Assembly: GCA_016748015.1 (NCBI GenBank)
Contig: JAAOMT010000200.1
Location: 901,502 to 965,501, forward strand
Source of the DNA: Geosiphon pyriformis
Lineage: Eukaryota; Glomeromycota; Glomeromycetes; Archaeosporales; Geosiphonaceae
DNA length: 64,000 nt
Reading direction: 5' to 3'
Shown here: positions 7,501-64,000 of the stretch, piece after piece
Layout of the letters: each line of letters opens with the position of its first letter
How positions within the stretch are numbered: the first letter of the stretch is position 1
The notes under the pieces: generated by a model
Told to the model about the DNA's origin: nothing
Seen by the model: only the letters and a program-made list of their open reading frames with translations
Database searches by the model: none
Position numbers and translations under genes: made by a program

Positions 7501-8184
7501 CTTCTTCCTTAGCAATAAATACTTCATCAATTTTATCAGTGGGCGCTTTGCCGTGCACACTCCAAAACATTCTGAGACACACAACAGTTCGGATGAACTT
7601 GCGCTCATCCCATGTTCGGAGTTTTTTGTCTTCGTTTTCATTAACTTAATTTCCAGGCAGAAATCTGTTTAAAGCTCAAGTTATCTTGATGGATTGAGTC
7701 TTCATCCAAGAGTGTTGATATGGGTGATGTCGACACTATTAGACAACGATACTATAAGCAAATCTCGTCAAGCCCAGCCACCGCTTCAAGAGCTGCTTTT
7801 GAAGATGTTTTAGATACACCTTGATTAATAGTGAATTGTTGAGAATATCTGATATTGCTACGAGCTGTTATGCGTTTTTCGTCTGCTATGATGCTCCCGT
7901 CAATAGCAGCCAGCTGCATGCGACAGATAAAGACTGTGTTGATAAAAATGTTTATGAAGAGGTCGGCAAAGTATATCCTGGTGGGTGACCACAACTTTCG
8001 AGACCATTCCGCGACTTGTTCGTAGGTGGGAAATCGAGAGAGAAGTTGCTTTGTCGCTCGATCCTCTTTTGCTTTGCACTAGAGACACGGGTATAGAGTT
8101 AATCTTTCTTGGTGGCAGAGGTGGTGAAGATGGTATCAGATGAGGTATTTATTTTCGCAAATCTTTTCTATTGGTTAAATCCAA
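7501..8184. other. Intergenic region; possible extension of the Fanzor remnant
   Basis: Minus-strand open stretches (7520-7640 and 7752-8088) have protein-like composition but shift frame. They may be the decayed N-terminal part of the neighbouring Fanzor copy or a second element. The last 100 bases must also hold the promoter of the PPR gene. Confidence 0.3.
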
Positions 8185-20600: not shown

Positions 20601-21881
20601 TGAAGATATTTTATAATAAAAATTGATTTAATTTGATTTATTTTTTTTAATTAAAAATTTAAAAATAAATTTTGTATTTTAGATTTACGAGTAATTTTAC
20701 ACTTAAAATATAATAATAATAATTATAATAATAATAAATAATAGATTTGTTTTTGGATTAAAAATTTGAATAGTTACAAAATTTAATTAATTATAATGTT
20801 TTTTTTTTCGATAAAATTTGATAGAATTTTTACAAGATGATTTTATAACCATCTAAAAGAATACATTTTTATCAATCTAAACATAATAACCAATTAAGTA
20901 AGTAATATATATATATTTATTTTTTTATTAATTGGCTAAATTACATATATAACTAAAATTTTGAATTTTGAATTTTACAATGCTCTGTTAATTTTTAATA
21001 AATAATTTTTTTGTTACATAAAACTTTAATTAAAAATACAATTATTATTATTGAAATAATTTTTTATGGTTTTAAATATTTCAATAAAACATAAATTCTT
21101 AACTTTGTTTAACAGCTAAAATTCATAAATGAGTTTTACTAAAAAAAATTCAATTTAAAATAAATGTAACTTGTTTATTTATTTTATTTTTTTAATCAAT
21201 TGAATTAATGTGAAATTTATTTTGAAAAATAATGTTTTTTCTTTGCCAATTAATAATTAGATTCATTATAATTAATTGATGAAAATCAAGTAATACTGTT
21301 AATAATTATGTTTTCTTAATATATTTTTAATCTGAATTGACAAAAAAAATAATTACTATTAATTAATTTAATTGAAAAATTTCAAAAATATTTTATCAAA
21401 TATTACAATAAACTGCTTAAAAAATAAAATTTAAAAGCTGTAATTCAAATTTTTTGGTTAAATTATATTTATATTAAAATTGTTTCAAGAATTGATGTAT
21501 ATTTAATTAAACATTAAACAATAATAATAATAATATAATAATAAGCAGTGAGCTTGTTAAATTAGAAAATTATATTACTTTAATTTTTATTGCTTTTAAA
21601 AAAACCAGACTTGCTATTTGAATTATTATAAAAAATTTGAGCAAAAAGTATTTTTACTAAAAATAACTTAATGTAAGTATATTTATTTAATTTAATTTAT
21701 TACACCAAAATATATATAAATAAATAAATTTAGAAATGTTAATTCATATTACAAAAATAAACCGATTTAAAAATATTTTTGTGATAACTAGTAGATATTA
21801 GCAACTTTTTGAGAAGGCAAGATTTTAAGGAAAAGGAGAGTATTGAAGCTGGTAGTGATAACTCAAGGTTCATTTTCAAGT
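17656..21881. other. A/T desert without genes
   Basis: After the DUF4238 promoter region (a TATATAG lies just upstream of its start), composition falls to near-pure A/T with poly-A/T runs. One GC-rich island, GAGGGCGGCCCAACCACTA, lies near 18540. Related words occur near 13830 (AGCCCAACCATAATG) and 41785 (AGTCCAACTACTAC), perhaps marks of one repeat family. No gene or RNA is recognised. Confidence 0.65.
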
Positions 21882-32450: not shown

Positions 32451-33750
32451 ATTTTTGATTATGTTGGCTTTGAAATGTCTCATTTTAAGTAATATGCAAT
32501 TGTCATTTTTCTATAATTTTTGAAAATTTTCTAAGCTGTTAGCTGGAGAAATATTCCAGCTTCTTTTATGTGCAAATTCAGCTTAAATTTTTTCATTATA
32601 TCAATTTATCTATTTCTTTCAGAACAGGCTCCCTTCATTTCTGGATAGAAATTTTGAAAATAATAAAAAATATTTTACACTAAAAAGATATTATTAGGGA
32701 AAAAAGTAAAGGAACTTATTTCCAGCGCGATTTATTTCTTGGACAAGACCTTAAATTTGAAATAATTTAGATCGAATTATTTGTAAATTTACACTTTTAA
32801 AAAAGTTCTCATAATTTTTAACTTGTCTGCAAACAAATCACAAACAGAAAAAGCCGCTTCCAATCCCTCAAGAATTAGGATAATTTCATTAAGTTTACCC
32901 AAGTAAGCAAGCTTCTAGGAATGGTTAGTTCACAATACTTTTTATTCTTTTTGGTTCATTTAAAATCTATATAGGAGTTTGTAAACGAAAAATCATAAGC
33001 TTCTAAAAAACCTTTGATGTCAATAAGATATGTTCTTCCAACAGCAAATAAAAATCATGCTTATTATTTATGCACCAAGAAATAAATACTTAAACTGAGA
33101 ATTTTAACTTTGCTGATTTGAAAAAAATGACGTATTAGAATAGGTAGTAATTCAAGAGACAGTTATTTTATCTTTAATTAAAAATAATTTTTTAAGGAAT
33201 TGGACCCTTAAAAACTTTGCCCAAAATGTAAAAACTTTCCCAATTAAAATAATGTCTTGACTCATGAAATTTCATTATTATAGACTTCTTATAAAGGTTA
33301 TCAACGAAGAAACCAAAATGGGTAATTGAATTCTGATTTTTGGGAAAATTGACGGGCCGAAAGGTTTCCAGTCATTGTTTTCTTTTATTAATATGGGTTT
33401 CGGCAATTATCGTTATCAATTACCAATCAAAATACCAAACCAGGAAGGCACAGTTTTATTAATAATCCAGACTAGTCATGAATCAAAAGATATAAATCAA
33501 AACCTTAAATCTGTATTTGCTATTGATAAGCCAAACAAAAAAAATCTAGTTAATGCAGAAGGTCGTATTAGTCTCTGCCAACCGGATCAACAAAAATCAT
33601 GTCTTGAAACAGTCATAATTATTCATCTAAGAATTCGGGTTTCCGGAAAATCAGAGAACAATATATATAAACACCAAGGTTATCTTTAAATAATTTAGAT
33701 TTTCTTCAATTACAATTTTCTCTAAAAAAATTAAAGATTCTTTTCTCAAA
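32451..33750. other. Intergenic region upstream of alternative oxidase
   Basis: Less A/T-rich sequence with a perfect 7-bp inverted repeat AGCTGGA/TCCAGCT around 32541-32561. A 104-codon plus-strand open frame (33375-33689) ends 61 nt before the oxidase start. It has no recognisable motif and would occupy the promoter or 5' UTR, so it is probably not a gene. Confidence 0.45.
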
Positions 33751-35310
33751 ATGTTACGCTCCGCTTTTCGAGCCACAAATATAATTGCTCGTCGTAGCGC
33801 TTTGTCAACAAGTTTAATTTCAACTTATTCGACTCAATTTTCAAATATTGTTCATAAATCTCCTGTAAGATTCATCACTGAAAGTGGTGCTCCAAAAGGT
33901 GCAGCTATCACGAGTAGTGCTTATGCAAAGCCCTCGATAAACAACGACACCAGCGATAAGGATCGTGACGCAATTTTGCAACAAATTCCAGCCGAATTGC
34001 TACGTACACCTCATCCAAGACCTGTTCGTAATGAATTCATCGATGCGAAGAAACCATTGACAACGAAAGATCTGGAGAAAATTGATATTAAAATTAATTT
34101 GCATCGTGAACCAGTTACCTTCAAGGACAAAATTGCTTATACTGTGGTGAAATTGTTAAGAATTCCAACGGATATGTTCTTTAAGAAGAAATATATTCAT
34201 CGATCAGTTATGTTGGAAACGGTAAGAATTTTCGGTCTAAAAATAACTGTTAATTTTAATTTTTCATAATTCGAGATTTCGTTCAACGTCTGGAAAAGGC
34301 TCTTTCAAAATAGTTCTTCCTAAATCAAATTTGCATAGGGGTGCACAGCCTTCTGTAATTATGATCAAAACAGATCAAATTAATACGAGAAAACTATGAT
34401 ATTAATACTTTTCTTTGTAACTTTTAGCGTAAATGGAACTTTCTCGTACCTAATATATTCCTTAAACCTCTGATTTTTAGGTTGCTGCCGTACCAGGAAT
34501 GGTTGGGGCTACACTCAGACATCTTCGATCACTTCGTAGAATGAAACATGACGGTGGTTGGATCGAACATTTGCTACACGAAGCAGAAAATGAACGGTAA
34601 TAATCTGCTAATTCTCGTTATAATTCAGAAGGTGGGCTCTAATATTTACGGATAAGGTTTCAATTTTAGCATGCACTTACTGACATGGATGCGTTTTTCA
34701 CAACCCAATCTTTGGGAAAGAGGCTTAGTTGCTGTTGTTCAAGGCGTTTGGTATAATGTCTTTTTTGTTTTATATCTGATTAGTCCAAGTACTGCTCATC
34801 GCGTTACCGGTTATCTTGAAGAGGAGGCAGTCATTAGTTATACATCTTTTTTGAAAGGTGTGTTTTTAATAAGTTTATCATGATTTTGCGTGTAAAGCTT
34901 GATATTGATTCTTCGAATTTTTTCCTTAGAGATCGATAATGGTAATATTCAAAATATTCGTGAAGTACCTGAGATTGCTTTAGAATATTGGAAACTTGAC
35001 CGAAATACTGCTACCTTACGTGATGTTGTCCTAGCAGTGCGTGCTGATGAAGCAGTACACAGGTAATTTATTTTTTTATGAATTTAAATGAATTGGATAT
35101 TTAATCTCAATGGATTAAGAATACAGTCCTAAGAATATTTCTTTATACATGTATAGGGATTCCAACCACCACTTTTCGGATCGTCTGATTCTTCATCGTG
35201 AAGATTTAAGAGAAGATATCAAACTTGTTATAGCAGAGGAAGTGGCGAACAAGAGAAATAAAAATATTGCCGGTTTGAATCATAATGCAAATGAAAAATG
35301 GGCACACTAA
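33751..35310 (+). CDS. Mitochondrial alternative oxidase
   Basis: Five exons: 33751-34221, 34481-34596, 34670-34857, 34930-35062 and 35157-35310. All introns are GT-AG (259, 73, 72 and 94 nt). The spliced protein has 353 residues. The enzyme oxidises ubiquinol and reduces O2 to water on the matrix face of the inner mitochondrial membrane, bypassing complexes III and IV. All di-iron ligand motifs are present: LETVAAVPGM spanning intron 1, HEAENERMHLLTW spanning intron 2, [10 protein letters not shown] in exon 3, and ADEAVHR-DSNH spanning intron 4. The N-terminus ([20 protein letters not shown]) is a typical Arg/Ser-rich import presequence. The length matches fungal alternative oxidases. Every splice junction restores a family motif, so the model is secure. 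No regulatory site was identified. Confidence 0.95.
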
Positions 35311-46075: not shown

Positions 46076-47382
46076 TACTCAATGGTTAAAATTGGTATAG
46101 TATATTTAAATAAATATAATTACATATTTTAATTGTAATTTTCCCAAAAACATATTTACATGTTGAAATAAATCGAAAATTAAATTAAATTTTTTAAGTT
46201 ATTACGACATTTTTAATATTAAAAACTACAAATAAAATATTTTATTTATATGTTTGATTTAAAAATAGAAATATAATTATGTAATTATGCTTAAATTAGA
46301 TTTTTATATATAATTTTAAACAAAAGAAATTTAAAATCTAAGATTTAATAAATGATCCAACACAATTATTATTATTTGCTGAAGTTTTTCTATTAAAGAA
46401 CTCAAAGAATATAATAAAGCTGACTACTGAAACTGATAATGCTTTAAATGAATTCTTGAATGGAAACATTAAAGATATAAAAATTTATTTTGGTATTGTC
46501 TTAAAAGATTTAATATTATTTAAGCTGCAGGTTATAAATAACGTTATGTAGAATTCCAAGTATACTTATTTTTTGAAGAAAAATGTATGCATAAAATCTA
46601 CACTGCTCATTCTACTTGAAAGTTTCCTGTTTTCTTATGTTTGACCTAATAATAAAAACATCTTTTTTAGAAAAAAATCAAATTATCTAAATTGGGTTAA
46701 TTTATTTCGCCCTTTAACAGGTTTTATTGTGCACCACTAATTAGCAACAATTCAATAAGACGTTTAAAAAATAGGAATTAAATATATACAAATACGAAAT
46801 ATTTAAAATACAAAGCAGGCATCTTTACAATTAATACAGGAGGGGTCCGCAAAATTATCTAAAACCTAGATTAATGAAGAGCCTAAATTGGGTTATGTAA
46901 ATCGAATAATTCGAGCTTTTTTAAAATAAATTTTTCCTATGCACACTTAGCAAAAATTCATTAATGCCTGATAATATTAAATTCTATTTCTTACTAACTA
47001 CTTGATTTCAAAATTTCCTTCAGATTGATTTTGAAATTGAAAAGCATTCGTTTATGATTGATACTTATTCTAAAAAACGAAAAATCATTTTATCACAATT
47101 TTTAAATTATATTTTGCTTTCGAAAAGGTTTAAAAAAGATATCCATTTATAATCATGAATTCAAAGGTATTTTCCGTCCTAGCGATAAAGTTTCTTGCAT
47201 GTATTACTTAGCGTTAAACAGCAGGAACTGGAATAATCAAAATTTAGAGTTTTTAATATTGTCTGTGAGTAAATATGTATTCATTGTACAACTATAACAC
47301 GTTTTACAGAATACCCTTTAAAAAGCCTGTTTACGGTATTGTAAATTCATGCATCCGCTATGTAATATATTGCATTGCAAAG

Positions 47383-47558
47383 AACAATGACCCACCTTTT
47401 GCCTTTTTAGACTAATAATCTGATATGTTTTTAGGGCATTGTTAGTATTGCTTTAACAATGCATCTATTAAATTTATGATTAAATGAAATAATATTTTGA
47501 CTTTTTTAACATTCTGCTTCAGTTAATATTGTTTCTTATCACATCTTTTTCTATAAAA
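47383..47558 (+). promoter_or_regulatory. Promoter of CaaX-peptide gene 1
   Basis: AACAATG, the HMG-box consensus (WWCAAWG), lies at 47383-47389. A perfect inverted pair follows: GCATTGTTA at 47436-47444 and TAACAATGC at 47454-47462, with a 9-nt spacer. ATTGTTT at 47528-47534 gives a further reverse site. The TATA box TATAAAA is at 47552-47558, 121 nt before the ATG. The order is repeated in the other units. Confidence 0.6.
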
Positions 47559-47672
47559 TTGATCGTGCCCTTACAATTTCTTTCATTTAATCCAACCAGA
47601 AGAAGTACGAAAAAAGAAAAAGAAATTGAGTTCTCAAATTCAAATTAAACCAAATCAAATAACTTAAACAAA

Positions 47673-47804
47673 ATGCAACCAACAACCAACAATCAATCCT
47701 CATTCAATCCGCTCTCAATCATTGCTCCTGGCAACGGCTCAATTAAAGGACCAACCGGTGACCCAGACGATGGCAGTGGCACTGGTCAATGCTCGATCAT
47801 GTAA
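47673..47804 (+). CDS. CaaX lipopeptide (pheromone-like) precursor, copy 1
   Basis: Intronless 43-codon gene. The product starts MQPTTNNQSS, has a Gly/Pro/Asp-rich middle (GSIKGPTGDPDDGSGTG) and ends QCSIM. Cys-Ser-Ile-Met is a strong farnesyltransferase CaaX box (prelamin A has the same four residues), predicting farnesylation, removal of SIM and carboxymethylation. Length, Pro/Asn/Ser-rich N-terminus, lack of a signal peptide and a CaaX end match a-factor-type fungal pheromone precursors. MQP at the start and IKG-x3-DP before the Cys recall yeast a-factor. There is no coiled coil, so a G-protein gamma subunit is unlikely. Start context is AAACAAAATG with A at -3. Five more copies encode the identical peptide. 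Maturation sites and receptor are unknown; the pheromone role is inference. Confidence 0.78.
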   Translation: MQPTTNNQSSFNPLSIIAPGNGSIKGPTGDPDDGSGTGQCSIM

Positions 47805-50800
47805 AAGTTGCAGAGTATTCATATTGAAGATTCTCTTTTCCTACCATCCCAGTAAATTGTGTGAAAAATTATCGTCGGGGCTTCTGAATTACATACTTCA
47901 AATTAATATAATGCAAATTTGGACTTTTAACATAGATATCTAGCTCTGAAGAATCAATAGTAAAGCAAAAGTCAGTATAATTACTCGCAACGAAAGGATA
48001 CTGCATATTTCTCTTTCACTATTTTTTATTATTAATTGTATATTAACGTTATAGTAATATAATTTGATTGGTTCTACCAAATGTTAAATAAATTATTTCT
48101 AGTATTTAAATTTGGTAATAAAATGTTCTGATTCAAGACCATAAAATATTCTTCTCTCAAAGCTAATTGGACCTTTAAAAGTATATTTCTTAATGGCGAA
48201 GTGAAACTTGAAAGTCAAATAAAACCTATTCAATTTTTACTAATTTAACTGAAGGCATTTAAATATTAAAATATAAAATCAAAAACTTAAATTAAAAGCC
48301 CTGATGCTTTTTACTGTTAATAAATTTCTGAATTTAGTTTAGAAAACTATAAAATTGTTTTCACCATGCAAGAAAATATTTTAGATTAAATTAAAATTTT
48401 ATAAATAAGAATGATAGTAATTTTAAATTATTATTTTAATTTTAATTTTATCAGCAACACAGTAGCAAAAGTTTTGAAGTTTTTTATATAGCTTTCAAAT
48501 TATACATATATCAAACCAAAAAAAGTGAAGCTTATTCCTTCAAACTATTATTCTATGTTGAAAAAAGCTATTTCCTAAAGTCTATTTTGAAATTTTTCGC
48601 AGATTTAATCCAAAAGCGATTGACAAGAAGACTGCGATAATTGAATTATAAATTGTGTGAAAATCAAAAAAATCAGTTATGAAAAATTCTATAGCTTGAA
48701 TTACTTAGCTACCTTAATTGTTTGATTTCGCGCTTTATATTAAAGCTGAAAATTTTAAATTGATATGGGATAATAATAATAAAAAATTTCAAAATTTATT
48801 TCGTTTTATTATTAATTTTCAATTCTAAGGATTGTTCGCTTTAGAAATTTTAAAACCAGGGTTTTTTCTTAAATATATTTGTGTATTAAATATTAATAAC
48901 TTATCAACTCCATTAAAATTCTCATTCTGTATTATCATAAATCTATTTCTCAATTATTTCAGTGAATTAATAAACTGTCAAAAGTTAATATAAAAATGTA
49001 TATCTTTTTGATGTTAGAGATATTAGGCTCAATTGAAAATCGAAAAGCTCAAATTAAATTGTTATCGTATAGTAATAGGTCATTTTTGAGAATTTAGAAT
49101 CATGGCAGAACCCTTTTGGAGATTTTAATTAATAGACTCTCCAGAATTAATTTATTTAAACTTGTGATTTATTTCAGTTATATTCAGGTCAAAAGTACAA
49201 AATATGATATTTACAATGCTTATGTCTTATATATTTTTACTCTTTCTCACGAAATTTATGTCAATGGAGTTTAGTAAAGGTGCTTCACATAAGAGGATAA
49301 AACTATTTTTAAATTTTACATTCATAATAACTCAATACTCACAAGATTTTGATTCAATCTAATGAAAAATAAGCCATTTTCAGAGTGTTAGCAATATTAT
49401 CAAAAAAAATAAAAAAGTAATAGATACTATAAAGCTCCTTAATATTATTGCAATATACTATAGATAACAGGAAAATTGAAACCCTATTTAACAAATGGTA
49501 ATGCACTTAGGCAATCTCTTCTTGTTGCATAAAAAATTCCCCTAAAAAAATTTGTTCCGAAAACATATATTGATATAATTATGCAAATTCTATTTTTTTC
49601 GGGTTTTGAGCACATCATAAAAATTTTGAAATTAAAAAAACTCTCCCAGCTGCTGAAATAGTGATAGAACTTTTTAAAGAGTAAGCAAAGTCTATTTTAT
49701 TTACCTCATATTCACCTTGAAAATTATTAAATTTTTGAAACAAAGAGATTAAAAGTTTGCAATAAATATATCCATTAATTAAAATACAATTTTTTCTCCA
49801 CACTCAATATATTCTTTTACATTTTCTTATTTGAAGTTATGAGTTTCTTAAAATATTTTGTGGTATTAAAAAATTAACTCTAATTTATAGTTTTAATATG
49901 AATTAAAAATAAAAGTTAAAATACCGAAGTTTATATGAAAAAGTATTTCAAAGAACAATTGCTTTTGTGAAGAATTATATTTTTAATACTGCTTTAAAAA
50001 AAATTTAAATGGAAATAATATTAGACTTGTAATTTTCTTGTTTTTTTATTGAACTTAGTTATTAAGCATCGAACCTTTTGATATAAAATTTAGAATTTGT
50101 TTTTATTGTAATCTAATTTAAAATCTTATTGATGAGTTTATAACAACAAATATTTAAAAAAATTTCAGCTCCATTTAATTAAAAAATATTGAAATTTGGA
50201 ATATACAAAGATTGTCAAACAAAAATTTATATAAAATTCGAATTATAAATTAAATAGCAAAAGATGTTTGTTAATCATAAATAACTCATAAAAAGTGCTA
50301 AATTTCTTACCTATTAACAAAAAGAATATTATTCAATCAGAAAATAATATCATTAAATTCTTACATTGTAAAAAATACCCTCAAACATCATTAAAGAAAA
50401 TAAATGCAAAGCTCTTCATTGGTTAAAACAATGGATAATAAAAACAACAATTAAAAATGAAGCAAATGTCTAAACGTTGATTTAATTTTTTTTTTATTAG
50501 TATTTAAGCTGCAACAGAACAATATCTACTTCAAATTGGTCACCAATATATTGTTTTTTATTTGAAATTTCCTATATTTCTATTCGACTTAAGAATTGAA
50601 GAATAAACGAGAATTGTTAAAGATTAACTCTTTGAAATAAGATCAAATTATCTAAAATTCAGTCGAACTATTTTATATTCAGGAAGTTTAATTTTTCTAT
50701 ATTAAGATTGGATAGTTAATTTTCTCTTTCAAAAAAGGTATTTAGAGACTAAAAAATTATCAATAAAAATCAAAAATGTCAGAAAACGAGATAAAAAGTG

Positions 50801-51092
50801 GCATCATGTAGCGTACACATTTTAAAAACTAGACTAATAAAAAGTTTAGATTTTATTAAGTGATTTGAGCTTTCTCATTAATTAATTATCTGTACCTATA
50901 GTTTATTTAATTGAGATTTCAATTTAAAAACTTTTTTCCTCTGGAATAATCGAAATTTAAAATTTTAGCATTGTCCGTAAATAAACAAGTATTCTTTGTA
51001 CAACTATAACACGCTTTGAAGAATACCCTTTTGAAAGTCTGTTTACGGCATTGTAAACTCAAGAATCCGTTCTATAATATTGTAGTGCAAAG

Positions 51093-51280
51093 AACAATGG
51101 CCCAAATCTTGCCTTTTTCGACTAAAATAATCAATTATAAGGGCTGATCCATTTTTTAGGATATTGTTTGCATAGCATACAATTCATCTGTTAAATTTAT
51201 GATTAAATGGAATATAATTTAACTTTTTTAACATTCTATTTCAATTTATATTGTTTCTTATCACATCTTTTTCTATAAAA
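51093..51280 (+). promoter_or_regulatory. Promoter of CaaX-peptide gene 2
   Basis: AACAATG at 51093-51099. The inverted pair seen in the other units has decayed here (ATTGTTT at 51173-51179, with only ACAAT on the right arm). TATAAAA at 51274-51280 lies 114 nt before the ATG. Confidence 0.5.
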
Positions 51281-51387
51281 CTGGTCGTGCCTTTACAATT
51301 TTCTTTTCATTCAATCCAACCAGAAGAAAAGGAAAAGAAATTGAATTCTCAAATTCAAATTATATCAAATCAAATAACTTAAGCAAA

Positions 51388-51519
51388 ATGCAACCAACAA
51401 CCAACAATCAATCCTCTTTCAATCCACTCTCAATCATCGCTCCTGGCAACGGCTCAATTAAAGGACCAACTGGTGACCCAGATGATGGTAGCGGCACTGG
51501 TCAATGCTCAATCATGTAA
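51388..51519 (+). CDS. CaaX lipopeptide (pheromone-like) precursor, copy 2
   Basis: Encodes the same 43 residues as copy 1, ending QCSIM. It differs from copy 1 only at synonymous sites (codons 10, 13, 17, 28, 32, 34, 35 and 41). It lies in the unit most similar to unit 1 over its full length, yet it carries GGT AGC at codons 34-35 where copy 1 has GGC AGT. That suggests exchange or conversion of the coding block between units. The 3' flank after the TAA is shared with all copies (GCAGAGTATTCATATTGAA). Confidence 0.78.
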   Translation: MQPTTNNQSSFNPLSIIAPGNGSIKGPTGDPDDGSGTGQCSIM

Positions 51520-54500
51520 AAATTGCAGAGTATTCATATTGAAGATTCTCTTTTTTCGACCATCCCAGTAAATTGTGTGAAAAATTATCTTCGGGCTTCT
51601 GACTTACATACTTCAAATTAATATAATGCAAATTTGGGCTTTTAACATAGATATCTAGCTCTGAAGAATCAATAGTAAAGCAAAAGTCAGTATAATTACT
51701 CGCAACGAAAGGATACTGCATATTTCTCTTTCACCATTTTTTATTATTAATTGTATATTAACGTTATAGTAATATAATTTGATTGGTTCTACAAAATGGT
51801 AAATAAATTATTTCTAGTATTTAAATTTGGTAATAAAATGTTCTGATTCAAGACCATAAAATATTCTTATCTCAAAGCTAATTGGACCCTTTAAAAGTAT
51901 ATTTCTTAATGGCGAAGTGAAACTTGAAAGTCAAATAAAACCTGTTCAATTTTTACTAATTTAACTGAAGGTATTTAAATATTAAATACAAAATCAAAAA
52001 CTTAAATTAAAAGCCCTGATACTTTTTACTGCTAATAAATTTCTGAATTTAGTTTAGAAAACTACAAAATTGTTTTCACTATGCAAGAAAATATTTTAGA
52101 TTAAATTAAAATTTTATAAATAAGAATGATAGTAGTTTTAAATTATTATTTTAATTTTAATTTTATCAGCAACACAGTAGCAAAAGTTTTGAAGTTTTTT
52201 ATATAGCTTTCAAATTATACATATATCAAACCAAAAAAAGTGAAGCTTATTCCTTCAAACTATTATTCTATTTGAAAAAAAATATTTCCTAAAGTCTATT
52301 TTGAAATTTTTCGCAGATTTAATCCAAAAGCGATTGACAAGAAGACTGCGATAATTGAATTATAAATTGTGTAAAATTAGTCATGGAAAATTCTATAGCT
52401 TGAATTACTTAGTTACTTTAATTGTTTGATTTCTTGCTTTGTGTTAAAGCTGACAATTTTGAATTAATAGCCTAATAGTAGAAAAAGAAAATTTCAAATT
52501 AATTCGTTTTCATATCAATTATTGATTCTCAGGATTGTTTGCTTTCTAATTTTGAAACAAAGGTTTTTTTTCTTAAATCTATTGGTGTATTAAATATTAA
52601 TAACTTATTAACTCCATTTAAATTCTCATTCTGTATTATCATAAATCTATTTTTCAATTATTTCAGTGAATTAATACACTGTCAAGATTTAATATAAAAA
52701 TGTATATCTTTTTTATGTTAGAGATATTAGGCTCAATTGAAAATCAAAAAGCTCAATTAAATTGTTATCGCATAGTAATAGGTCATTTATGAGAATTTAG
52801 AATCATCGGCAGATAGTTTAATACCCTTTTGGAGACTTTAATTAATAGACTCTCCAGAATGAATTTATTAAACTTGTGATTTATTCCAGTTGCCAAGTGG
52901 TTATATTTAGGTCAAAAGTACAAAATATGATATTTACAGTGTTTATGTCTTATATATTTTTACTTCTTTCTCTCGAAATTTGTTTCAATGAAGTTTAGTA
53001 AAGATGCTTCACATAAGAAGATAAACTATTTTTAAATTTTACATTAATAATAACTCAATACTCACAAAATTTTGATTCAATCTAATAAAAAATAAGCCAT
53101 TTTAAGAGTGTTAGCAATATTATCAAAAAAAGATAAAAAATTGTTAGACACTATAATTATCATTGTAATATACTATAGATAAGAGGAAAGTTGAAACCCT
53201 ATTTAACAAATGTTTATGCATTGTGTTTTCTGCTTTGCTTTGAAACAATATTTTATTGTTATATAAGAATTCTCCAAAAAGATTTGTTCCCAAAAATAGA
53301 TTAATATAATTACCAATTCTATTTTTTGTCGGATTTTGAACACATTATGAAGTCTTGAAATCGTCCCAAAAGCTGAAACCTTTAAAGAGTAAGCAATATT
53401 TATTTTGTTCATCTTATATTCACTTTGAAAATATTAAGTTTTTGAAACAAAGAGATTAAAAGTTTGCAATAAATATATCATGAAATTAAAATTTAATTTT
53501 TTTCTCCACACTCAAAATATTCTGTTGCATTTTATTATTTGAAGTTATGAGTTTCTTAAAATATTTTGTGGTATTAAAAAATTAACCCCGAATTTATAGT
53601 TTTAATATGAATTAAAAATAGAAGTTAAAATACCGAAGTTTATTATGAAAAAATACTCAAAGAACCATTGCTTTTGCAAAAGATTATATTTTTATGCTTA
53701 TTTGAGAAAAAGCTATATTTCAATAATATTGTACTTGTAATTTTCTTGTTTTTTTCTTGAATTTATAGTTATTAAGCATCAACTTTTTGATATAAAATTT
53801 AGGATTTGTGTTTATTGTAGTCTATGTTTAAATTTTTTATCATAAGTTTATAACAACAAATATTTGAAATTTTTTTCAGCTTTTATTATTAATATTAAAT
53901 ATTAAATATTCAAATGTAGAATATTCAAAGATTGTCACATAAAGATTTATATCAAACTCGAATTAATATTATCTAAAATACAAGATAATTATTGTTTAAA
54001 TAGTGAAAGATGCTAATTAATAATAAAAAACTTATAGAAGACGCAGATTTTCTTAGATTTTAGCGAAAAAAAATATTAACATTAAATTTTCAGAGTTTAG
54101 AAAATACCCTCAAAAATCATCAAAAAAAATAAATGCATAAAGTGCAAAGCTCTGCATGGTTAATACAATGGGATAATAAAACTGATATTAAAGTGAATAA
54201 ATTGTCTAGACGTTGATTTGATATTTTTTTTATTAGTATTTAGGCAACATAACAATATCTACTTCAAAACTGTATTGTATATTCTAATTGAAATTTCCTA
54301 TATTCTATTCACTTAAGAATTGAAAAATAAACGAAGAATTGTTAAACATTAACTCTTTGAAATTAGCTAAACTTGGTCAAACTATTTAACTTTTCAGAAG
54401 TTTAAGTTTTCCATATTAAGTGAGTTATGTATGTACACATTTAAAAACTAGACTAATAAAAAATTTGAATTTTGTCGGGTAAATCATGTGACTTGAACTT

Positions 54501-54722
54501 TCTCATAATAAACTTTCTGTACCCACAGTTTATTTAAATGAGGTTTCAGTTTAAAAACTCTTTTCCATCTGGAATAATCGAAATTTAGAGTTTTAGCATT
54601 GTCTGTGAATAGACAAGTATTTTTCGTTCAACGATAACACATTTTGAAGAATACACTTTCGAAAGCCTGTTTACGGCATTATATATTCATGCATCCGCTA
54701 TATAATAGGTTGTAATGCAAAG

Positions 54723-54912
54723 AACAATGACCTACCTTTTGCCTTTTTAGACTAATAATCAATTTTGAAATCTGAAATGTTTTTGGGACATTGTTAGCGT
54801 AACTTAACAATGCGCCTATCAAATTTATGAACAATTGGAATAATAATAAATTGGCTTTTTTAACATTCTGCTTCAATTAATATTGTTTCTAGTCACATAT
54901 TTTCCTATAAAA
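54723..54912 (+). promoter_or_regulatory. Promoter of CaaX-peptide gene 3
   Basis: AACAATG at 54723-54729. Inverted pair CATTGTTA at 54789-54796 and TAACAATG at 54805-54812 (8-nt spacer). TATAAAA at 54906-54912 lies 119 nt before the ATG. Confidence 0.58.
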
Positions 54913-55024
54913 TAGATCGTGCCTTCCCAACTTCTTTTCATTCAATCCAACCAAAAGAACTAAAAGAAAAAAAGAAATTGAACTCTCAAATTCAAATTAA
55001 ATCAAATCAAATAACTTAAACAAA

Positions 55025-55156
55025 ATGCAACCAACAACCAACAATCAATCCTCATTCAATCCGCTCTCAATCATCGCTCCTGGCAATGGCTCGATTAAAG
55101 GACCAACTGGTGACCCAGACGATGGTAGCGGCACTGGTCAATGCTCTATCATGTAA
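55025..55156 (+). CDS. CaaX lipopeptide (pheromone-like) precursor, copy 3
   Basis: Identical 43-residue product with the CSIM terminus. Private synonymous differences are AAT at codon 21 and TCT at codon 41. Its 3' flank diverges from units 1-2 about 400 nt after the stop, showing that spacer DNA changes faster than the gene. It is followed after only 1.9 kb by copy 4, the shortest spacing in the array. Confidence 0.78.
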   Translation: MQPTTNNQSSFNPLSIIAPGNGSIKGPTGDPDDGSGTGQCSIM

Positions 55157-56628
55157 AATTCGCAGAGTATTTATATTGAAAGTTCTCTTTTTTCGACCAT
55201 CCCAATAATATGTGTGAAAAATTATCGTCAGCACTTCTGAATTATATACTTCAAGTTAATATAATGCAAATTTGGACTCTTTACATAGTTATCAAGCTAT
55301 TAATAATCAATAGTAATGCAAAAGTCAATAGGATTATTTATAATGAAATGATATCGCATATTTCTCTTCACTATTTCTTAATATTAATTGTGTATTAGTA
55401 TTATAGCATTACTTTTATAAATGTCATTGGTTTTACCAAAGTTTAAATAAAATGCTTCTAGCATTTAAACTTAATAAAGGAAAGCTTTAACTCAAGGACT
55501 GTGGAACTTTTTCCTCAAAAAAAATGTGGTTTCTATCATATAAAAAATACTGCTACTCAGGTGCTTTTAAGGTATATTCTTGGTGAACTTGAACAATTAA
55601 ATTATTTAACGCAAAAATTGAGCCTTAGATATTTGGAATCCCCCCAAAAAATAGAAACCTAAATAAAAAATTTAAGTTTTTACTGCTAATAAAATTTTTG
55701 CTTTGAAATTATGAAATGCATAGCTACTATTTAAAGTATTTTAAAATATGTTATGAACTATTTTTCACTACTTTTTTTAGATTAATAAAAATCTTGATGA
55801 CATAACTTAAGTTTTTGAATTATTGTCTCTAATTTAAATTTTACGGGCAAAAAACATTGACATAAATATATAAAGTGTTACAATAGAAGGTTATAAGACT
55901 AAAAAAAATAAAGCTAGATATAAAATATATTAACAATTAAATATGACATCCTTTTGAAAATATCGAATTATTTAAATTGGGTTAAATTGTTTCGCTCTTT
56001 AGCAAGTTTCGGTTTGAATTTCTAATTAGCAGCTATTCGAATAAGTCATTGAAATAATTAAATTACAAGGCAGGCATCCTTACAATTAGTATAAGAGAGG
56101 CTAGCAAATTTATCTTAAAACTAAAATAATAATAAGTGTCAATTTGGTTTGGGTAAATCGAATGATTCGAGCTTTTTAAAATAAATTTTCATATGCACAC
56201 TTAGCAAATAGTCATTAAAGCCTCATAACTTAAATAATATTTTTTACTAATTACTTATTAATTCAAAGTTTCCCTCATATTAATTTTGAAATTAAAACGC
56301 ATTCTGTTTATAGATTGATACTTATACTAAAAGTCATTTTATTCCCGATTTTTTATGGATATTTGTTTATGAAAAGGTTCAAAAAAGATATTCATTTACA
56401 ATCTTAAATTCAAAAGCATTTTGCATGCTAGTAATAGATTTTCTTGCATGTAATACTCATTTAGCATACCGTTAAACATTAGATGGAAATTTAGAGTTTT
56501 TAATATTGTCCGTGAATGAACAAATGTTTTTTCTACAACTATAACACATTTTTGAAGAAAACTCTTTTGAAAGCCTGTTTATGGCATTGTAAATTCATGC
56601 ATCCGTTCTATAATATTGTAGTGCAAAG

Positions 56629-56817
56629 AACAATAACCTACATATTGCCATTTTCGACTAAAATAATCAATTTTAAAAGCTGATCCGTTTTTAGGACATT
56701 GTTAGTATAGCTTAACAATGCGTTTATCAAATTTCTGATTAAATGGAATAATAATTTGACTTTTTTAACATTCTGCTTCAGTTAATATTGTTTCTAATCA
56801 TATCTTTTTCTATAAAA
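56629..56817 (+). promoter_or_regulatory. Promoter of CaaX-peptide gene 4
   Basis: The first site reads AACAATA (56629-56635), one base off the strict consensus. Inverted pair CATTGTTA at 56697-56704 and TAACAATG at 56713-56720 (8-nt spacer). TATAAAA at 56811-56817 lies 111 nt before the ATG, the shortest leader in the array. Confidence 0.55.
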
Positions 56818-56921
56818 TAGATCGTGCCTTCCCAACTTCTTTTCATTCAATCCAACCAAAAGAACTAAAAGAAATTGAACTCTCAAATTCAAATTAAATC
56901 AAATCAAATAACTTAAACAAA

Positions 56922-57053
56922 ATGCAACCAACAACCAACAATCAATCCTCATTCAATCCGCTCTCAATCATCGCTCCTGGCAACGGCTCAATTAAAGGAC
57001 CAACTGGTGACCCAGACGATGGTAGCGGCACTGGTCAATGCTCGATTATGTAA
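56922..57053 (+). CDS. CaaX lipopeptide (pheromone-like) precursor, copy 4
   Basis: Identical 43-residue product. The codon choice is the array majority at nearly every site and shares ATT at codon 42 with copy 5 only, so copies 4 and 5 look closest in the coding part. The upstream flank contains the 55.95-56.25 kb block, which is otherwise found only before copy 1. Confidence 0.78.
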   Translation: MQPTTNNQSSFNPLSIIAPGNGSIKGPTGDPDDGSGTGQCSIM

Positions 57054-59033
57054 AAGTTACAGAGTATTCATATTGAAAGTTCTCTTTTTTCGACTATCCC
57101 AGTAAATTATGTGAAAATTATCGTCGGCACTTCCTCAAGTTAATATAATGCAAATTCGGACTCTTTATATAGATATCTAGCTCTTAATAATCAGCGGTAA
57201 AGCAAAAGTCGATAGAATTACTCGCAACTAAAGGATACTGCATATTTCTATTTCACTCTTATTTAATATTAATAGTGTATTAGCATTAGAGTAATCGAAT
57301 TTGGTTAGTATTAACAAAATATTCCTAATATGTAAATTTTAATATTAATAGACTTTAATTCAAGAACGTTAAAACCTTTTTTGCTCAAGTAAAATAAAGC
57401 TATTTGGACCTTTAAAAATATCTCTCTTAATATCAAAGTGAAACTTGAAAGTCAAATATGAACCTGTTCAATCTTTACTAACTCAACTCAAACCTGATAT
57501 TTACCTTGAATTATTAAATTTTTTAAAGCAAAGAGATTAAAAGCTTGCGATAAATATATATCAACCAATCTTTGAATCATATTTCTCCTATCAAAATTCA
57601 GTGAAATTCATATTAAATGTTTTATTTGCGCTTAAAATATTCTATTTCATTTTTTTATTTGAAGTTATGAGTTTTTCTTAAGCATATCTTTTAACATTGA
57701 GAAAAATCTAATCTCTAATTTATACTTTTAATATGAATTGATAATAGAAGTTAAAATACCGAAGTTTATTATACTAACAATTGAAAATACCTATAAAAAA
57801 AGATTGCTTTTGCAAAAAATTATATTTTTTAATACTACTTTAAGAAAAAACCTGTAGTGCACTTGTATTTTCATCAACTTTGATGTAAAATTTAGAATTT
57901 ATTTTTTATTGTGATCTAAGCTTAAAATTTTATTGATGACTTTATAATAATAAATATTAAATTTGGCATAATCAAGGTGTTTTTATATAAAAATTTAAAT
58001 CAAATTTGAACAAAATTTTTACCGCAATATTGCAACATAATGTTTTTTTAAATAGTAAAGATGCTAATTATTAACGAAAAGATAATATCTAATCAGAGAA
58101 TATTATTCGTAACTTTTTAGAATGTAGAAAATACTCTCAAAAGATTATTAAATGCACAGATGTAAAGCTCTTTATGGTTAAACACAATGGGTTAATGAGA
58201 CTAGCACTAAAAATGAATGATTTGTCTAAACGTTAATGTGATATTTTTTGGTATTTAAGCTTCAGATTATAGAATTCAAAGAATATTTATAACTCAGACA
58301 GAACAATATCTACTTCGAAACTCGCATAAAATCTATATTGTTTGTTTTAATTGAAATTTTCCTATCTTCCTATTTTCGACTTAAGCATTGAAGAATGGAA
58401 CCAGATAGTGCTCGAACGGAGATAAAGAATTGTTAGACATAAACTCTTTGAAAAAAATTTAAAGTATTTCACTTTTAAATTTGCGATAGTAAGAGTTGAT
58501 AGCTAGTTTTCCCATTCAAAAATATTTAGAGATAAATGTTATATTAAGTGAGTTATTTAATGTAGAAATCCTATAATTTATTCTAAAATTAGACGAATAA
58601 TTAGCAGGAGTTTATTTGAACCTAATATAAATAAATTTATTTAAAAATATTTTCAGTTCTACCCAAATCAATTCTGAATTTAAAAGCATTTGTTTATAAA
58701 TTGATACTTTTTACTAAGAAAACAAAAATGTTATTATTTCACATTAACTGAATTGCAAATCTAGCATATTTTAATTCCGAAGAGATCCTAAAAAAGATCC
58801 CTATTTACAATTTGAATTCAAAGGTATTTGGCATGTTAGTCATAAATTCTCTTGGATGTAATACCGTTAAACATCAGGCACTGGAATAATCCAAATTTAG
58901 AGTTTTTAGCATTGTCCGTTAATAAACAAGTATTATTTGTACAACTATAACACGCTTTTGAAGAAAACCCTTTTGAAAGCCTATTAACGGCATTGTAAAT
59001 TCATGCATCTGTTCTATAATATTGTAGTGCAAG

Positions 59034-59200
59034 AACAATGACCTATATCTTTCCTTTTTCGACTAAAATAATCAATTTAAAAAGCTGATCCGTTTTAACA
59101 ATGTGTCTATCAAATTTATGACTAAATGGAATAATAACTTGACTTTTTTAACATTCTGCTTCAGTTAACATTGTTTCTAATCATATTTTTTTCTATAAAA
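59034..59200 (+). promoter_or_regulatory. Promoter of CaaX-peptide gene 5
   Basis: AACAATG at 59034-59040. Only the right arm of the inverted pair remains (TAACAATG at 59096-59103); about 20 nt with the left arm are deleted compared with unit 4. TATAAAA at 59194-59200 lies 120 nt before the ATG. It is a natural variant for judging whether the pair matters. Confidence 0.52.
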
Positions 59201-59313
59201 TTGATCGTGTCTTCCCAATTTCTTTCCATTCAATCCAACTAAAAGAACTAAAGAAAAGGAAAGAAATTGAATTCTCAAAATTAAATTAAATCAAATCAAA
59301 TAATTTAAACAAA

Positions 59314-59445
59314 ATGCAACCAACAACCAACAATCAATCCTCTTTCAATCCGCTCTCAATCATCGCTCCTGGCAACGGCTCAATTAAAGGACCAACTGGT
59401 GACCCAGACGATGGTAGCGGCACTGGCCAATGCTCGATTATGTAA
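59314..59445 (+). CDS. CaaX lipopeptide (pheromone-like) precursor, copy 5
   Basis: Identical 43-residue product. Private synonymous change: GGC at codon 38. It shares TCT at codon 10 with copy 2 and ATT at codon 42 with copy 4, a mosaic pattern expected if short conversion tracts move between units. Confidence 0.78.
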   Translation: MQPTTNNQSSFNPLSIIAPGNGSIKGPTGDPDDGSGTGQCSIM

Positions 59446-62192
59446 AAGTTGCAGAGTATTCATATTGAAAGCTCTCTTTTTTCGACTATCCCAGTAAATT
59501 GTGTGAAAATTATCGTCGACACTTCCTCAAGTTAATGTAATGCAAATTCGGACTCTTTATGTAGATATCTAGCTCTTAATAATCAGCGGTAAAGCAAAAG
59601 TCGATAGAATTACTCGCAATTAAAGGATACTGCATATTTCTCTTTCACTATTTTCTAATATTAATTGTATAGTAACATTATAGTAATATAATTTGATCAG
59701 TTTTACTAAAGGTTAAATGAAATATTCCTATATTTAAATTTGGTAATAAAATGCTTTTATTCAAAACCATAAAACTTTTTTTACTCAAATAAAATAAAGC
59801 TAATTGGACCTTCAAAAGTATATTTCTTGATTGTAAAGTAAAACCTGAAAGTTAAATCCGAAACTGTTTAATCTTTACTAACTCAACTCAAGGCATTCGA
59901 ATATTTAGGTGTTCATAAGTCTTATAAAATTAAAAAATTAAATTAAAAAGCTTTGATACTTTTTATTGCTTTAAATTTCTGACTTGAGTTGAAAATAAGC
60001 AAAATTAACACTCTATTTAAAAACTTATCAGGAAAGTAGTAGCAAAAAATTTCGAATTTCTTTATATAGCATTAAAATATACAAATAGTTTCACATATAT
60101 TCAGTCTAAAGAAGTTAAAAAATAACTTAAGGCTTTTTCTTCTAAGTTAACATAAAAAAACCTCGAATGATTATTCTCTACTGAATAAAGTCATTTACTA
60201 AAATCTAATTATGGTCGGCTCTTACGCTTTCCATAGGTCTGATCCAAGGCTCTTTCATATGCAGAACGGAAACAATAAAATTTTATAGCTATTTTTCTTA
60301 GCAGTTGCTACTAAAGTAATAACCTTTCAATATTTGTATTTCTTTATTCTGGTGCTTGTGATAATTAAATTTTTTAGCCTTTGATTATAATAGCTAGTTT
60401 AAAAAAAATTGATTTTGAAGATATTAGGCTCAATTAAATATTGAGATTTCCACTAAATTTATATTAAAATATCAGATAATTTTTATTGCGATTGCAAGCT
60501 GTAAAGTCATTTTTGAGAATTTAGAGTTATCGGTAAATAGTTTAAATTTCTTTTGGAAAATTTAAAACATAGAGATTAATTATAATTGATTTAAATAATA
60601 AGAAATTATTTTTTGGAATTTGAAGGATAGATCGAATTTTGTGATTCATTCCTGTTGCTGAGCGGGTAGGTTTAGGTCAAAAGTAGCTAATGTTATAGCA
60701 TAATTAGTATAAATATGAAATTTGCAATATTTAGGTCTTTTGTCTTTTTACAAAATTTATTTTAATCAATTTTTTGTCAAAGGTACTTCACATAAGAGGA
60801 TAAAAATATTCTAAATTTTAATTAAAATAATAAAAACTAAGCAATTTTTAGAGTAACAGATACTATAGGGGCTACTCATTATCACTGTGATATGCTATAG
60901 GTGAGAACCTATTTATTAAATTCTAGTGCAGTGTATTTTTTGCTCTGTACTTTGAAACAATAATGAATTCATTTAGAAACTATTAAAATTTTAAAAGCAA
61001 AGAGATTAAAAGCTTGCGATAAATATATTATCAAACAATACTCTCAACTCTATTTTTTGATATTAAAAAATTTAAACCCTTTAATTTACACTTCTAATAT
61101 GACTTAAAAAACAGAGGTTGCAATGCAGATGTTTACTATACCAATAATTGAAAAATCCCTCAAAGAATGATTACGAAAAATTATATAGCAATAATATTTT
61201 ACCTATAATTTCCGTGTTTTTGTTTAAAATTTATAGTTATTAATATCAATTTTTTTAATGTAAAATTTAGAATTTATTCTTTATTGTAATCAAAGTTTAA
61301 AATTTTGTTGATGACTTATAAAAATAAATACCAAAACTTGGAATAACACACAAAATTTGAATTCAATGCGAATTATAAGCTAAACCATGTTTTTTTCTTA
61401 ATATTATTTGAATAATGCAACATAAAGAATTCAGTATTAATTGTTAGGAGTATTTAAATAATAATTAAATATTAACAAAAAGAATAATAATTAATCAAAA
61501 ATTATTTTCTAAGTGTAGAAAATATTTACAAAAAAGATTTATTATTAAAAAATAAATGAATTGTCTAAACTTTAATTGATATTTTTTTAGTATTTTAACT
61601 TTACTTTATAAAATTCTATAGTTCTTGCAGAACAATATCTACCTCAAAACTCGCATAATATATGTATTGTTCAATCTAATTGAAATTTTCTTTTATTTTA
61701 TTTTCGACTTAAGAATTGAAGAATAGACGAAATGGTTGACAAATGCAGATGAAGAGTGATTGAACATAAACTCATTAAAAAATTAAATATCCAAGATTGT
61801 CCAATTATTTTACTCTTTAGCGGGTTGAAATTTGCAAAGTAAGAGTTGACAGTTAATTTTTCCATTCAAAAAAGGTATTTAGAGACTAGTAATATTATTT
61901 CAAAATTAAAAATATTAGAACACACAAAAAAATTCTTATAATTTAATCTAAAAATTAGGCTAACCATTAACAAATTTAAGAATCTTTCATATCTACTTAA
62001 ATTAATTCTGAAAATTAAATTCATTAGCATAGAGTTAAACAGAATAATTGAAATTTAGAGTTTTTAGCATTGTCCGTGAATAAACATGTATTCTTTGTAA
62101 AACTATAACACGTTGTGCAGAATATCCTTCCGAAAACTATTTATGGCATTGTTAAGTTCATGCATCCCTATATAATATATTGTAGTGCAAAG

Positions 62193-62351
62193 AACAATGT
62201 CTACCTCTTAAAATCTGACATGTTTTTAGGGCATTGTTAATATGGCTTAACAATGCGTCTATCAAATTTATGATTAAATGGAATAATAATTTGACTTTTT
62301 AACATTTTGCTTCAGTTAATATTGTTTCTAATCATACCTTTTTCTATAAAA
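62193..62351 (+). promoter_or_regulatory. Promoter of CaaX-peptide gene 6
   Basis: AACAATG at 62193-62199. Perfect inverted pair GCATTGTTA at 62231-62239 and TAACAATGC at 62248-62256 (8-nt spacer). TATAAAA at 62345-62351 lies 122 nt before the ATG. Farther upstream (about 62092) ATTCTTTGTAA resembles the Ste11-type TR-box core TTCTTTGTT. Confidence 0.58.
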
Positions 62352-62466
62352 TTGATCGTGCCTTCCAAATTTCTTTTCATTCAATCCAACCAAAAGAACT
62401 AAAAGAAAAGGAAAAGAAATTGAATTCTCAAATTCAAATTAAATCAAATCATATAACTTAAACAAA

Positions 62467-62598
62467 ATGCAACCAACAACCAACAATCAATCTTCATTCA
62501 ATCCACTCTCAATAATTGCTCCTGGCAACGGCTCGATTAAAGGACCAACTGGTGACCCAGACGATGGCAGTGGCACTGGTCAATGCTCAATAATGTAA
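62467..62598 (+). CDS. CaaX lipopeptide (pheromone-like) precursor, copy 6
   Basis: Identical 43-residue product, ending QCSIM. It carries the most distinct synonymous set (TCT at codon 9, ATA at codons 16 and 42). It also shares GGC AGT at codons 34-35 and ATT at codon 17 with copy 1 at the other end of the array. No amino-acid change has accumulated, so selection on the peptide is strict even in the copy most diverged at DNA level. Confidence 0.78.
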   Translation: MQPTTNNQSSFNPLSIIAPGNGSIKGPTGDPDDGSGTGQCSIM

Positions 62599-64000
62599 AA
62601 ATTGCAGAGTATTCATATTGAAGCTTCTCTTTTTTGATCATCCCAGCAAATTGTGTGAAAAATTATCGGCACTTCTTCAAGTTAATATAATGCAAATTTG
62701 AACTCTTTACATAGATATCTAGCACTTAATAATTAGCAGTAAGAAAAGTCGATAGAATTATTCACAACGAAAGGATAATGCATATTTCACTTTAATCTTA
62801 ATTGTATATTAGTGTTATAAACTTATTTTGATTAGTTTTTACCAAAGCTTATATAGAATATTTCTAGTGTTTAAATTTGATAATAGAATCCTTTAACTCA
62901 AAGAACCATAAAAGCTTTTTTTCTCAAATAAAATCTTGAGCCTCTATCACTGATAAAATAAAACTAATTGGACCCTTTAAAAGTATATCTCTTGATAGCA
63001 AAGTGAAACTTAAAAGTCAAATAAAAAAGTGTTCAATATTTACTAACTTAATTCAAGGCATTCGAGCATTAGATATTCATAAATTTTATAAATACAGAAC
63101 TTTAAATCAAAAAGCCTTGATACTTTTACTGCTAATAAATTTCTGATTTAATTTAAAATGAGCAATGAAGTCATTATTCATCATGCAAAAAAAATTAAAA
63201 ATTAAAATAAAACTCTTATAATATAAATTATATAAGTTTTAAATTGTCACACTAATTTAAAAATTTATCAGCAAAACAGTGCCAAATAATTTGAATTTTC
63301 TTTATACGACCTTCAAATTATACATATATTTTTGACACAAATTCAATCGAAAAAAAGTGAAGTTTTTTCTTTAAACAACTATTCTCTATTTACGAAAATG
63401 TAATTCTCAATAGTGTGCAAAATTAGTGAAATCAGCTGTAGCTTAATTATTTTGATTATTTTATTTCTTGCTTTGTATTAAAATTGAAAATTTTGAATAG
63501 ATATAAACTAAAAATAATAAACTTTAGTTTCTTATTAATTATTGACTTTAGGAATTGTTTGCTTTTAAAATTATAAAACTAAAGTTTTTTCCTTAAATCT
63601 ATTAAGCTATTAAGTTATTAAATTTTAATTTTGTTGAAATTCTCATTTAGTATTGTCATGAAATTATTTTTCGAATATTTGTGTAACTTAATTGCAAAAA
63701 CTTAATATAAATACATATATCTTTTAAAATAATTCATTATTTTCAAATCCTTTCTCCTATAAACATAAAAAATATTATGGCTTTTTTATCATATTTTCAT
63801 TTAAGGCTTGTATTAATTGAATTTTTTAGCCTTTGATTAAATAGTTGGTTGGAAAATCTTTTAATGCTAAAGATATTATATTTAACTAAAAATTGAATTT
63901 AAAATTATTAGCATATAATTTAATTTTTTTTGAAAACTTTAAAGATAGAAGCTATCCAAAATAATTAATAGTTAAGACTAATCTTATACATCAAACTTTG

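Follow-up and report, generated by a model that had tools for sequence, protein, structure and literature searches.

It has long been an open question whether arbuscular mycorrhizal fungi (AMF) and related fungi reproduce sexually, and the group was for a long time considered asexual. The closest described systems to the one reported here are the fungal lipopeptide pheromones, which diverge fast. MFA1 and MFA2 of Saccharomyces cerevisiae encode short precursors ending in a CaaX box, with several genes per peptide and with STE3 and Ste24 in the same genome, and the basidiomycete precursors (Ustilago mfa, PF08015) are likewise small CaaX peptides, often multicopy and served by STE3-class receptors. 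In precursor form and gene content they resemble the locus described here from Geosiphon pyriformis (Glomeromycotina). The window, that is, the whole analysed stretch of 64,000 nucleotides (C380:901502-965501, from a genome assembly of 124.7 Mb in 406 contigs), holds six genes for one identical 43-residue peptide ending in Cys-Ser-Ile-Met (CSIM), and these belong to a conserved multicopy family of CaaX-ending micropeptide genes that is established for Geosiphon. Our best reading, drawn from sequence, is that the peptide would be the ligand missing from the STE3 pathway outlined for AMF in 2013, which makes it a strong candidate mating pheromone. For Rhizophagus, of the same subphylum, the available part of that work (Halary 2013; PMC3834313) gives a single STE3 gene, STE6 and a MAP-kinase cascade, and reports no peptide pheromone gene, neither a-factor nor alpha-factor. 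In the available portion of PMC7490403, mating-pheromone genes were not found upregulated in transcriptomes of co-existing Rhizophagus isolates, and that of PMC4771724 notes that STE and MAPK genes may serve host-signal perception rather than sex, as in Fusarium. The KEX2-processed peptides of Rhizophagus irregularis, as presented in the portion of PMC6339444 at hand, are also candidate signalling peptides of a glomeromycotinan fungus, but are secretory, KEX2-cut and built of alpha-type repeats, whereas the Geosiphon peptide has no repeats and a CaaX end. The open-licence literature on pheromones, as far as its accessible text goes and with subscription papers mostly outside its scope, reports no such gene for Geosiphon or Glomeromycotina.

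The six genes stand on the plus strand at 47673..47804 (copy 1), 51388..51519 (copy 2), 55025..55156 (copy 3), 56922..57053 (copy 4), 59314..59445 (copy 5) and 62467..62598 (copy 6). Each is an open reading frame (ORF) of 43 codons with the translation MQPTTNNQSSFNPLSIIAPGNGSIKGPTGDPDDGSGTGQCSIM, set in direct repeats that are spaced 1.9-3.7 kb apart and are 80-94% identical to the reference copy over a 300-nt core. The first-pass annotation of the window had described six direct repeats with 43-codon genes for one CSIM-ending peptide, in DNA that looked like that of a mycorrhizal fungus; positions, translations and C-terminal ends all agree with the ORF list, and the species is indeed a fungus, of the Glomeromycotina. 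An in-frame stop precedes each ATG, 27 bases upstream in five copies and 159 bases upstream in the other. All 14 columns that vary among the six copies are third codon positions, giving a proportion of nonsynonymous differences (pN) of 0 and of synonymous differences (pS) of 0.22; when the same changes were placed at random, at most three of the six peptides were identical in any of 5000 trials. A strict CaaX end occurs in 6 of the 161 window ORFs of 30-80 residues that begin with ATG, exactly the six peptide genes, which, together with the third-position-only variation, shows that the array is not a product of chance.

The multicopy nature of the gene, also claimed at first pass, extends well beyond the window. 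A protein search of the assembly returned 37 matches to the peptide, of which 33, on 12 contigs, are full-length and stop-free (11 on C380, five each on C241 and C216, three on C283, two on C318 and one on each of seven others), and 24 have 100% identity. These 24 are encoded by 21 distinct DNA sequences, whose 33 variable columns are distributed over codon positions 1, 2 and 3 as 1, 0 and 32; with the changes moved randomly to same-base sites, no more than eight of the 24 peptides were identical in 5000 trials. Over all 33 copies (528 pairs) pN/pS is 0.044 in the proposed frame, against 4.3 and 7.6 in the other forward frames and 2.7, 0.19 and 6.5 in the reverse ones. It is close to certain that the gene is translated and under selection. 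A mean pS of 0.39 over the 528 pairs shows most of the copies to be neither recent nor homogenised duplicates, although there are just 29 distinct coding sequences among the 33.

Five of the 11 intact copies on C380 form a second sub-array directly left of the window (C380:889485-900474), and the first 46 kb of the window thus lie between two sub-arrays. The four remaining matches are degenerate (C216:39722, C353:140157, C83:322889 and C393:605211), ending in QCSIM in two cases and QCLIM in one, with the Cys lost in the fourth. A fifth decayed copy, C394:182215-182311, keeps the promoter-proximal part and the 5' leader and has neither peptide nor CaaX frame. Using the 250-base upstream region as a DNA query of the genome, 36 matches were obtained and no paralogue with a different peptide: all are known copies, apart from two decayed copies and the promoter-only remnant at C394:182215. 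The copy count is not exact, since two annotated copies sit on a 120,102-base contig outside those listed by the genome search and some near-identical pairs may have been assembled twice. One such pair, C241:314768 and C380:949174, is 98% identical over about 3 kb, with the C241 copy near its contig end, and could reflect either a recent duplication or a single place entered twice in the assembly.

Dispersal over 12 contigs, together with the degenerate remnants and opposite-facing pairs on C283 and C318, might indicate that the family belongs to a transposable element, as passengers or as components, with the ORF maintained for the benefit of the element itself. Such pairs (C283:160957/166753 and C318:387077/389542), at 98-99.5% identity over the matching stretch, suggest recent inverted duplications. 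Against this, the copies show no common element ends, as the homology of the flanks to the best partner runs anywhere from about 30 to more than 2000 bases. On C380, 11 of the 33 copies follow one another head to tail. The peptide matches nothing in Pfam, and a 43-residue CaaX ORF is not known to serve in transposition. A transposon origin is accordingly rejected as very unlikely.

Matches were taken by their genome-search coordinates with no filter on the C-terminal end, and 33 of 33 full-length ones finish in CSIM followed by a stop (TAA in 31, TGA in two), among them the two copies that are 81 and 86% identical. The first-pass annotation had named loss of the terminal Cys in most homologues as a finding that would speak against its proposal; no such loss is seen. 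With its terminal Met, CSIM is a farnesyltransferase-type box, one that human prelamin A, a substrate of the Ste24 class, carries too. Prenylation (farnesylation) of the peptide is very likely.

Eight copies are carried in NCBI as spliced models (G9A89_006322, 006324, 021138-021140, 004937, 004938 and 023116) for proteins of 50-76 residues that depart from the frame no later than the conserved stop. Taken at face value, they would turn the 43 codons into exon 1 of a longer spliced protein, with the CaaX end arising by chance where reading runs past a splice donor, and the usual stop context, ATGTAA, does contain the donor-like GTAA. The eight models nevertheless carry eight different tails, CSIM is universal among full-length matches, those of 81 and 86% identity included, and the two copies with TGA in place of TAA keep the stop. 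Conservation by codon phase is 0.989/0.992/0.801 in the coding sequence and drops to 0.764/0.713/0.688 over the 99 bases that follow it. Because the codon signal halts at the stop codon, the public spliced models are very probably wrong and the genes intronless, as first proposed; we reject the spliced-exon model, which is now barely credible. Small-ORF families can thus hide behind doubtful splice models in public annotation.

The distribution of amino acid changes gives a hint of precursor structure. Seven copies are mildly variant (1-2 residues off), and all five distinct substitutions among them fall at residues 7-18 and none at residues 19-43 (P 0.019 for all five within residues 2-20, with the boundary picked once their positions were known). 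Codons 2-20 hold 16 synonymous variable columns and codons 21-43 hold 17, an even spread. These five substitutions suggest a loose leader followed by a fixed mature end. Judged by eye, no secretory signal peptide is apparent in the polar N-terminus.

Each window gene was also said to have its own TATA box, and TATAAAA is found 111-122 bases before the ATG in all six, on the plus strand at 47552..47558, 51274..51280, 54906..54912, 56811..56817, 59194..59200 and 62345..62351 (copies 1 to 6). Counted start to start, a conserved ATTGTTTC stands 24 bases before it, at 47528..47535 in copy 1 and starting at 51250, 54882, 56787, 59170 and 62321 in copies 2 to 6. Across the family, 31 of 33 copies have TATAAAA in the 220 bases before the ATG, nearly always at about -101 to -130, as do 23% of shuffled upstream regions, a control that does not remove the shared ancestry of the copies; ATTGTTTC is just upstream of TATAAAA in 27 of 33. 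Upstream conservation has a local peak at this block (0.86, 0.84), is down to 0.69 between -70 and -38 and then increases again towards the ATG. ATTGTT resembles the sites of HMG-box proteins; what was measured for ATTGTTTC is conservation, and we do not claim it as an HMG-box site. A regulatory link to HMG-box factors is only an idea, for which the large MATA-HMG families of AMF, mentioned in the accessible part of PMC4771724, offer a context.

A pheromone of this kind would call for a receptor and for processing enzymes. In a profile search of the genome the STE3-type receptor family (PF02076) matches at one locus, C303:334886-335808, where an intact gene of three exons (C303:334868-336610) encodes 526 residues. 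The model is identical to NCBI G9A89_010645, annotated only as a hypothetical protein, and the protein belongs to the STE3 family, matching PF02076 with E 3.1e-70 over profile positions 1-292 of 292. Four relatives passed among the best 8000 word-sharing candidates. The closest of them belong to Ambispora gerdemannii (47%) and Diversispora eburnea (48%), and Mycena has a distant one; Rhizophagus is not represented among these four, although STE3 is reported there in the available text of PMC3834313. The protein had no match at E 0.01 among PDB sequences. STE2 (PF02116) gave no match in the genome, and as the control genomes were silent too, its absence is not established. In the 30 kb around STE3, nine short ORFs have Cys at position -4, and by eye none is similar to the peptide. 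Two of these ORFs, less than 10 kb from STE3 and unrelated to the peptide, encode 63 residues with the CaaX-like end CVVS (minus strand) and 55 residues with the CaaX-like end CSIL (plus strand), likely by chance.

The first-pass annotation had asked for farnesyltransferase, Rce1 or Ste24, Ste14 and a Ste6-type transporter; farnesyltransferase, Ste24 and the ICMT family are present, while Rce1 and the transporter are taken up below. Farnesyltransferase beta is on C320, where one exon has farnesyltransferase beta structures as its nearest PDB relatives; two further prenyltransferase loci lie on C227 and C282, and prenyltransferase alpha repeats (PPTA) on C320 and C368. One exon on C306 matches CAAX prenyl protease 1 structures (about 2e-29) and Ste24p (3.7e-27). 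ICMT-family matches are found on C80 and C282, in a family that also scores in five prokaryote controls, and ABC_membrane has 41 exon matches in the genome.

By sequence the peptide resembles little else. Aligned without gaps from Met1 with the S. cerevisiae MFA1 precursor, whose whole sequence matches PF17317, it shares M1, Q2, P3, T5, S15, N21, I24, K25, G26, D30 and P31. This amounts to 10 identities in 31 positions besides Met1, with a shuffle P of 5e-5 (1 of 20000) for one of seven pheromones tried. Residue N21 corresponds to the last leader residue in yeast MFA1. The mature a-factor dodecapeptide is given in the part of PMC7035247 consulted. We treat the resemblance as a lead and not as homology; that the Geosiphon and yeast precursors are truly homologous, as the MQP-T start, Asn21, IKG and DP might imply, seems doubtful. 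Differences from yeast are also plain: the box is CSIM in Geosiphon and CVIA in the yeast MFA precursors, there are 33 intact genes rather than two, and the Geosiphon peptide, unlike MFA1 and MFA2, does not match PF17317. That profile gave eight sub-threshold matches on the genome (E 1.85-6.8), none at the peptide loci. Compared with the basidiomycete systems, the peptide has neither a Pfam match nor significant similarity to the Ustilago and Cryptococcus sequences, and no copy lies on the receptor's contig. A search of the peptide against the PDB gave only prolyl oligopeptidase, at a chance-level E of 1.2. Identity as a G-gamma subunit was considered and rejected, as the peptide has no Pfam match and the G-gamma (PF00631) genes are separate from the peptide loci, on C75 and C195.

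Taken together, the family shows what characterizes a-factor-type systems: a short CaaX precursor, purifying selection, several genes per peptide, STE3 in the genome, and genes for farnesyltransferase, Ste24 and ICMT. We consider it probable that the peptide is an a-factor-type farnesylated pheromone precursor with STE3 as its receptor. By function, then, the Geosiphon peptide is an a-factor precursor in this reading; by sequence it is outside PF17317 and any Pfam family. The pheromone-like lipopeptide of the first-pass annotation thus stands as regards coding, selection, CSIM, STE3 and most of the processing genes, and its signalling role is what we infer from them.

Several observations pull the other way. 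Within the supposed mature part, residues 22, 29, 32, 35, 37 and 38 vary in the two intact copies that have diverged most, and eight residues separate DP from the Cys where the yeast MFA precursors have one. An N-anchored alignment with MFA2 lacks significance (P 0.20, against 0.0045 for a local alignment), and the five other pheromones tried show no similarity to the peptide. Searched against the Pfam library, which we take to include PF08015, the peptide hits no family at E up to 10. The protein collection, queried with a single sequence and a seven-sequence profile, yields Geosiphon matches only, and the prokaryote-genome and viral DNA collections, which are not aimed at fungi, gave 22 and 5 pattern matches, none of them confirmed. 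The lack of relatives outside Geosiphon does not weigh heavily, as lipopeptide pheromones diverge fast, and conservation of the peptide in other Glomeromycotina is unproven. Contig C303, which carries STE3, has no peptide copy. An exon-by-exon search of the genome for Rce1 (PF02517) gave no match, in a family found in 11 of 14 controls; Ste24 can perform the Rce1 step for a-factor. The sole ABC exon compared, on C300, is of ABCB type and nearer to ABCB1 (3.2e-50) than to yeast Ste6 (2.8e-22).

In a different reading the peptide would not be a ligand of STE3: it would act inside the cell as a small prenylated, membrane-anchored protein, or be secreted as a signal in symbiosis, for instance to Nostoc. 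CaaX boxes are also present on intracellular proteins; Geosiphon hosts cyanobacteria, which a species-specific multicopy peptide would suit, and no homologue was found among the proteins of other AMF. Against these roles, the genome has an STE3 receptor with no known ligand; the peptide has no domain, G-gamma genes exist apart from it, and many identical copies with a variable N-terminal and a near-invariant C-terminal part suit a processed precursor better than a structural anchor. We regard an anchor or symbiosis role as unlikely, if worth keeping in mind.

Returning to the pheromone precursor, its maturation can be outlined from the genes present. About 33 intronless genes with a conserved TATA box, if transcribed, would supply one 43-residue cytosolic precursor at high dose. 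Farnesyltransferase would farnesylate Cys40 of CSIM, Ste24 and possibly Rce1 would remove SIM, and ICMT would methylate the new C-terminus. The N-terminal leader would be cut off, with the site probably around residues 18-21, to yield a mature form of some 19-22 residues that ends in ...GPTGDPDDGSGTGQ-Cys(farnesyl)-OMe, which an ABCB-type transporter could export without a signal peptide. Binding to STE3 would then trigger the pheromone MAP-kinase route known from AMF, leading to mate recognition, hyphal fusion or self-signalling.

If correct, this would place lipopeptide pheromone signalling outside Dikarya and provide a tool to trigger or monitor partner recognition. With a concrete peptide and a concrete receptor in a single genome of this subphylum, the ligand-receptor pairing becomes directly testable in yeast. 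Should the resemblance to MFA1 reflect homology, the farnesylated peptide/STE3 mating system would be older than the split between Dikarya and Mucoromycota. Glomeromycotina would in that case have retained it as a functional, high-dosage pheromone, and Mucorales would have switched to trisporoids.

Rfam and tRNA scans of the window gave no matches. Elsewhere in it, a single open frame of 1266 residues, rich in PPR repeats, occupies positions 8179-11979 (plus strand); a DUF4238-domain protein is encoded at 16339-17661 (minus strand), and an open frame at 33694-34269 (plus strand) matches the start of alternative oxidase (PF01786, 2.8e-7).

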